Assembly: GCA_016928495.1 (NCBI GenBank)
Contig: JAFGKQ010000288.1
Coordinates: forward strand, 1-5,087
Source of the DNA: Candidatus Fermentibacterales bacterium
GTDB lineage: Bacteria; Fermentibacterota; Fermentibacteria; Fermentibacterales; JAFGKQ01
Direction of reading: 5' to 3'
Length of the DNA: 5,087 nucleotides
Under the pieces are notes generated by a model that saw nothing but the letters and a program-made list of their open reading frames with translations, searched no databases and was not told where the DNA came from. Below are positions 4,523-5,087 of the stretch, piece by piece (within the stretch, counting starts at the first letter, position 1; each line of letters begins with the position of its first letter). The translations under genes and the position numbers were made by a program.

Positions 4523-4864
4523 GTGGTTACCGTAAAGAAGAGCACGGAAGTAAGGCCGCAGGAGGTCAGGGACTCCGGAGCGTCGAAGGTCCAGAAGCGA
4601 ATCCTCGTAGGCGAGAAGGAGGGCTCCAACCGCATCGTCATGAGGATGTTCACCATCCGCCCGGGCGGCCATACGCCGCGGCACACCCACGAGATGGAGC
4701 ACGTGATCTACGTGGTCGAGGGAGAGGGAGAGGTCGTCGACGGTGACGGGTTCGCGCACGAGCTGAGGCCAGGCTACTGCGCCTTCGTTCCCCCCTACGA
4801 CCTCCACCACTTCCAGAACCGGACCGAGAGGAACTTCAGCTTCCTCTGCATCATAGGGACGTAG
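4523..4864 (+). CDS. single-domain cupin protein (cupin_2 type)
   Basis: A compact 113-residue beta-barrel, probably cytoplasmic. Cupin motif 1 is PGGHTPRHTHEMEHVIYVVEGEGE at residues 47-70, of which H54, H56 and E59 are the expected metal ligands. Cupin motif 2 is PGYCAFVPPYDLHHFQN at 83-99, with H95 as the fourth ligand in the usual H-x3-N spacing. All four ligands are thus present, consistent with binding Mn, Fe, Zn or similar. Such stand-alone cupins serve as sugar isomerases, epimerases, dioxygenases or small-molecule sensors, and the sequence does not say which. GTG 4523 is chosen for its AGGGAG. A 102-base gap separates it from the preceding gene, so it may have its own promoter, though no good one is visible. 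A strong hairpin begins right after the stop. Confidence 0.9.
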   Translation: MVTVKKSTEVRPQEVRDSGASKVQKRILVGEKEGSNRIVMRMFTIRPGGHTPRHTHEMEHVIYVVEGEGEVVDGDGFAHELRPGYCAFVPPYDLHHFQNRTERNFSFLCIIGT

Positions 4865-4867
4865 TTG

Positions 4868-4930
4868 AAGCAATTCAACTTGCTCGACTGTCACGGGTCC
4901 CTGGAAATCCCCGAGCAAGTTGAATTGCTT
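4868..4930 (+). repeat. perfect 19-base inverted repeat (hairpin) after the cupin gene
   Basis: The arm at 4868-4886 (AAGCAATTCAACTTGCTCG) is the exact reverse complement of 4912-4930, with a 25-base loop. Transcribed, it would form a stable stem directly after the cupin stop (4862-4864) and could act as a 3' end or processing signal. No T-tract follows, so it is not a classic intrinsic terminator. A smaller hairpin (GTTGAA 4864-4869 with TTCAAC 4874-4879) competes for the left arm. The right arm is also part of the tandem repeat unit; the left arm is not repeated in later units. Confidence 0.85.
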
Positions 4931-5087
4931 TGACTAAGTCCCTGAACGTTCGCCTCGACTGTCACGGGTTCCTGGAAATCCCCGAGCAAGTTGAATCGCT
5001 TTAACTACGTCCCTGAACGCTCGCCTCGACTGTCACGGGTTCCCGGGGATCCCCGAGCAAGTTGAATCGCTTTAACTACGTCCCTGA
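4883..5087. repeat. 71-bp tandem repeat array, about 2.9 units, continuing past the window
   Basis: Unit starts are at 4883, 4954 and 5025, an exact 71-base period, and the third unit is cut at base 63 by the window edge. Units 1 and 2 differ at five positions; units 2 and 3 differ at three of the 63 visible. Each unit begins CTCGACTGTCACGGGT, carries CCCCGAGCAAGTTGAAT in the middle and CCCTGAACG near the end. The similarity runs the whole length of the unit, with no variable spacer, so it is not a CRISPR. The period is not a multiple of three and no protein reads through it. Base composition is less GC-rich than the genes. Confidence 0.93.

Follow-up and report, generated by a model that had tools for sequence, protein, structure and literature searches.

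The closest described systems are RAYT genes and the repeat families associated with them. RAYT genes flanked by terminal inverted repeats (TIRs), often GGGGWSAS, have been reported together with dispersed families of such repeats as dimers and clusters; REPs were located near the 3′ ends of genes, often supplying the stop codon, and repeat clusters were reiterated in tandem together with their flanking DNA (Di Nocera et al. 2013, PMC3733652). REPINs, tandem REPIN clusters that include flanks, and evenly spaced single REPs were described by Bertels and Rainey (2011, PMC3116915), and the TIR-type transposases form TnpA-Y1 subclass 2.1 (PMC6006769). We analyzed a stretch of 5,087 bp from a Candidatus Fermentibacterales bacterium (“the window”), which is an entire contig (C55) of a metagenome-assembled genome (MAG; 81% complete, 337 contigs) and which ends in a 71-bp tandem array that, according to the original prediction, matched no repeat class. 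That judgment has to be reversed, since the core of the unit represents a terminal inverted repeat, that of a transposase-associated element, and fits the descriptions of REPtrons/TIRtrons and REPINs. The array is very probably a non-autonomous, RAYT-mobilized REPIN/MITE-like element that inserted at the 3′ end of a gene and was later amplified in tandem by slippage.

Anatomy of the array

TRF found a single array in the window, with a period of 71, 94% matches and 0% indels (Table 1). As it runs off the contig end, its 2.9 copies are only the visible part, consisting of units of 71, 71 and at least 63 bp, the third being truncated. The array is real, and its units differ exactly as predicted, at five positions over 71 nt (unit 1 vs unit 2) and at three over 63 nt (unit 2 vs unit 3); 126 of 134 positions were identical in a self-comparison at a lag of 71. 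Overlooked in the prediction was a copy of the unit core in inverted orientation that lies immediately before the array interval and is 91–94% complementary to the three copies downstream. The locus is a single inverted pair of 32-nt arms (AGGGACGTAGTTGAAGCAATTCAACTTGCTCG) in which the stretch comprising loop, right arm and 10-nt flank is present three times: a left arm is followed by a 25-nt loop, a right arm and a 10-nt flank, and everything from the left-arm end through the flank then recurs two further times. The 71-bp unit is therefore composed of the left-arm end (CTCG), the loop, the 32-nt right arm and the flank (GAACG[T/C]TCGC).

The left arm and the first right arm form one hairpin around a short spacer, as in a REPIN. 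The RNA fold of positions 4850-4955 has a free energy of −52.9 kcal/mol (z −8.8 vs shuffles), and single-stranded DNA from 4850 to 5087 folds with a z of −7.5 against shuffles. The left arm itself contains a 7-bp mini-hairpin, AGTTGAA-GCAA-TTCAACT (DNA hairpin −5.0 kcal/mol, z −2.6). Of the smaller dyads pointed out originally, the palindrome CGGGGATCCCCG is present in unit 3 and those of the GGG..CCC kind do fold, weakly (−2.8 to −4.7 kcal/mol). The spacer dyad of unit 3 (5015-5053) combines a T to C change with an AA to GG change in a way that preserves pairing, which is a single, weak case.

Table 1 Features of the locus at the contig end.
Feature	Position	Strand	Basis
Cupin-domain gene, 113 aa	4523..4864	+	Cupin_2, E=3.2e-17
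Left arm (terminal inverted repeat), AGGGACGTAGTTGAAGCAATTCAACTTGCTCG	4855..4886	+	Inverted repeats; profile match 34.7 bits
25-nt loop, left arm to first right arm	4887..4911	+	Sequence and inverted repeats
Tandem array, 71-bp unit	4883..5087	+	TRF, unit comparison
Unit 1 right arm	4912..4943	-	29/32 complementary to left arm; unit comparison, profile
Unit 2 right arm	4983..5014	-	30/32 complementary to left arm; unit comparison, profile
Unit 3 right arm	5054..5085	-	30/32 complementary to left arm; 2 nt before contig end; unit comparison, profile

A dispersed family of arms

The suggestion of a dispersed intergenic repeat was borne out, as some 20 further places in the genome carry the arm. 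The 11-mer GGGACGTAGTT has 32 exact sites there vs none for a reversed control, and among 41 relatives of the order it is absent from most and reaches a maximum of four sites. From these sites 33 arms could be read at 21 places, many of them as inverted pairs 77–204 bp apart, often at the ends of genes, and there are ten inverted pairs when that around the RAYT gene (see below) is included. A profile made from the arms gave 37 matches in the genome at E 0.1 or better, which is a count and no independent proof, the profile having been built from the same sequences. Alignment separated two subfamilies, a main one (GGGGACGTAGTTAAAGAAACTTAAGAAACTTG), whose arms form no stable hairpin by themselves (z 0.08), unlike a classical REP, and a window-type one (GGGACGTAGTTGAAnnAATTCAACTTG), which comprises the window, contig C288 and several single arms.

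A second family, GGGGACACGCACTA, is also dispersed (24 sites at one mismatch or fewer vs 3 in the control), and with GGGGACACATCACTTATCT the genome holds at least three TIR families. Four hybrid elements (C145:1048-1168, C234:4777-4971, C255:3103-3185 and C240:3380-3814) have GGGGACGTAGTT at one end and GGGGACACGCACTA/CCA at the other. A further pair of inverted main-subfamily arms, which have the private variant AAAGTTAAG in common, lies 1.37 kb apart at C49:1649-3017; considered as a RAYT locus, it was rejected, as it encloses another ORF, one resembling an outer-membrane-barrel protein with no Pfam match, and this may be an element of the RAYT type that carries a passenger gene.

Association with a RAYT gene

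The genome encodes two Y1_Tnp genes, on contigs C225 and C90. The C225 gene is intact, a 371-aa open frame that scores 32.7 bits against Y1_Tnp (cut-off 23 bits) and carries the motifs HVH and Y..NPVRAG; its best NCBIfam match is REP_Tyr_transpos (REP-associated tyrosine transposase), at an E of 2.3e-14 that is below the cut-off of that model. It is flanked by inverted main-subfamily arms that are identical at 32/32 nt, so the statement that the repeat is not an IS end was mistaken, and the units are essentially the ends of a known mobile element, a finding that the original prediction had itself said would speak against a new class. The family arms thereby flank the gene of a Y1 (HUH) transposase, in the manner of a TIRtron, and the genome holds a RAYT cognate to the main subfamily and only possibly to the window subfamily. 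The latter (GTTGAAnnAATTCAACTTG) differs from the C225 arms (GTTAAAGAAACTTAAGAAACTTG), and the window arm is, judged by alignment, a diverged and non-identical member of the same family. The arms on either side of the C90 RAYT form another perfect pair, GGGGACACATCACTTATCT, and this gene was rejected as the carrier of window-subfamily arms; a RAYT with exactly those arms was not found in the 81%-complete MAG. The window copy may thus have been mobilized by the C225 RAYT or by a relative of it that is lost or unassembled.

Relatives of the C225 RAYT are present in 27 of 42 genomes of the order, and RAYT genes of relatives carry arms similar to that of the window (GGGGACGTACCACACTTCTTCAACTT). 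Many are flanked by inverted repeats well above random, several of which read AGGGGACGTACCACACTTCTTCAACTT(G), and this sequence has the head GGGACGTA and the end TTCAACTTG in common with the window arm. A homologue (38% identity over nearly the full length) on a Deltaproteobacteria contig (L090) is flanked by GGGGACGTAGTTAAA arms and matches Bac_DnaA_C below the cut-off (E=1.7e-5); the C225 protein gave no match to a helix-turn-helix (HTH), which transposases of subclass 2.1 have at the C terminus, and a PDB sequence search with the RAYT returned none. Such a transposase would recognize the arm as single-stranded DNA, cut and rejoin it, and thereby spread arm pairs through the intergenic DNA, for the most part immediately beyond the 3′ ends of genes.

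Origin of the tandem copies

The most likely cause of the reiteration of loop, right arm and 10-nt flank would be a slipped-strand or microhomology-mediated duplication that took place at the hairpin as the DNA was replicated, a route that we prefer over cleavage by the transposase because the ends of the units and those of the arms fall at different positions. The one-armed layout recurs in a relative from another family of the same order (G002), whose sister arms (GGTATCAGGTTAAAGAAACTTAAGAAACC) keep the inner body and differ in the head. Its RAYT gene on contig C2 lies between two GGTATCAGGTTAAAGAAACTTAAGAAACC arms with 2 and 5 mismatches. On C140 of the same genome, a 71-bp stretch that consists of an 11-nt flank, the left arm and part of the loop occurs twice in tandem before a single right arm, which is the mirror image of the arrangement in the window, and a 120-bp tandem of the sister family, again with two copies, is found on C135. 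By inspection, the C140 repeat junction has only CC(A/G)G in common with both sides, as would be left by microhomology or slippage. That the period is 71 bp both in the window and on C140 is probably due to chance, since the units have only the arm in common and the other array of that genome has a period of 120 bp.

An unlikely alternative is that the RAYT made the copies itself, by repeated insertion of an excised one-armed intermediate beside the first copy and with no replication slippage. Asymmetric REPIN excision has been reported in P. fluorescens (PMC3116915), and the one-armed units with a 71-bp period in G002 would suit this route too; however, the units reach 10–11 nt into the outside flank and break off within the other arm or in mid-loop, and the C140 junction shares just the few nucleotides that microhomology would leave. 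There is only a slight chance that the tandem is an assembly artefact, a single element falsely repeated at a contig end. The position of the array and the fragmented metagenome assembly would allow for this, but the 3–5 substitutions between units argue against simple duplication by the assembler, and in another genome a comparable tandem (L147) is internal to its contig. Two contigs of G002, C40 and C136 (ends of L156 and L167), terminate at or near an arm (..TCGGTATCAG), and arm repeats seem to break the assemblies of that genome as in the window.

Probable insertion at a gene end

The array had been held to be non-coding, which is correct for the tandem units, but the first arm overlaps the end of the cupin-domain gene, whose last two codons and stop (GGG ACG TAG, 4856-4864) fall within it. 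The protein ends in ..FLCIIGT* here vs ..FLC(S/T/I)IP(K/R)* in seven relatives, and on this comparison the first arm has taken the place of the gene's last codons and provides the stop. The differing terminus and the arm-encoded GT* are good evidence that the element landed right where the gene ends; amplification by slippage would then have followed insertion at the last cupin codons, the stop now being the TAG of GGGACG-TAG. Across the genome, 17 elements could be classified with a heuristic, simple codon-model gene call, and nine lie between convergent, five between same-direction and three between divergent genes (binomial P 0.012 for the convergent fraction against 25%). The arms carry stops at +8 (TAG), +12 (TAA or TGA) and, in the main subfamily, +22 (TAA), and thus in all three frames; nine gene ends use an arm stop codon according to the same heuristic calls.

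In a transcript, the strong stem-loop at the cupin 3′ end, which is without a T-run, would protect or define the end of the mRNA, and the hairpin may in this way affect cupin mRNA as a by-product of the element. That it is instead a terminator or mRNA stabilizer selected at this locus and unrelated to mobile DNA is very improbable. Its place directly at the gene end, and that of several family members between convergent genes, would agree with such a role, but some 20 unrelated loci carry the arms as well, which also form the exact ends of a transposase element, the T-run is missing, a terminator scan gave no terminator-like match in the array, and no Rfam family reached its gathering score, the hairpin drawing only chance miRNA-like matches far below it. 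A tRNA search found none. That the repeats are binding sites for a protein (iterons, partition or regulator sites) or a CRISPR-like locus would explain the regular 71-bp spacing and yet is scarcely credible, as the window has no replication, partition or cas gene, searches of plasmid and phage DNA gave no match, an arm scan of viral contigs found none, and the core is dispersed and transposase-linked. The original prediction was right to exclude CRISPR, in which conserved repeats alternate with unique spacers, given that spacer and arm are both repeated here; its suggestions of a small-RNA source and of a protein-site array found no specific support.

Comparison with described repeat classes

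The locus fits a TIRtron/REPIN-type repeat, a kind that is already known. TIRtrons (TIRYTs) resemble it in having a gene for a Y1 transposase whose C-terminal extension is long, in terminal inverted repeats of ~30 nt that start with GGGGAC, in dispersed copies as dimers and clusters, and in the presence of several families per genome. They differ in that the family head here, GGGGACGT, matches GGGGWSAS at 6/8 positions and departs from it at two, and in that some window-type arms have a small self-complementary core after GTA, which blurs the distinction between a TIR and a GTAG-type REP; the sister families of the same genome (GGGGACAC) match GGGGWSAS at 8/8 positions. With REPINs the locus shares an inverted pair of short repeats and a spacer in one long hairpin, a linked RAYT, and tandem arrays, ordered and made up of nearly identical units with flanking DNA included, although the genome holds about 34 arms rather than hundreds and the visible array repeats one arm and the loop rather than the whole pair. 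The GTAG REPs and BIMEs of E. coli and Stenotrophomonas are similar in the GTAG of the arm, the mini-hairpin of the window subfamily, the extragenic position near gene 3′ ends and the arm-supplied stop codon. However, GTAG is here found 6 nt into the arm, with part of it in the stem, and every extra copy is oriented alike, whereas BIMEs alternate. Assignment to the strict GTAG REPs (a 20–40 nt palindrome with an unpaired GTAG foot) was rejected, as the AG belongs to the stem and arms of the main subfamily do not form a stable hairpin.

What appeared as an unknown tandem repeat thus becomes a RAYT-linked element, which extends the class to an uncultured order, where one genome has at least three TIR families and a relative has a sister family. 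Such repeats explain some of the contig breaks in assemblies of this kind, and arms with stops in every frame can settle on gene ends. A more tentative idea, against which we would put the odds, is that the RAYT arms of the order are modular, with an outer 8-nt head (GGGACGTA or GGTATCAG) that changes between genomes and an inner body (GTTAAAGAAACTTAAGAAAC) that stays, the hybrids on C145, C234, C255 and C240 joining the heads of two families, and one-armed tandems arising repeatedly. If so, the head would be the recognition code of the transposase, swappable during element evolution.

Elsewhere in the window, positions 975-1769 encode a LarE-like sacrificial sulfur transferase (TIGR00268, just over the cut-off), which adjoins genes for a carbamoyltransferase and an NAD-dependent epimerase.
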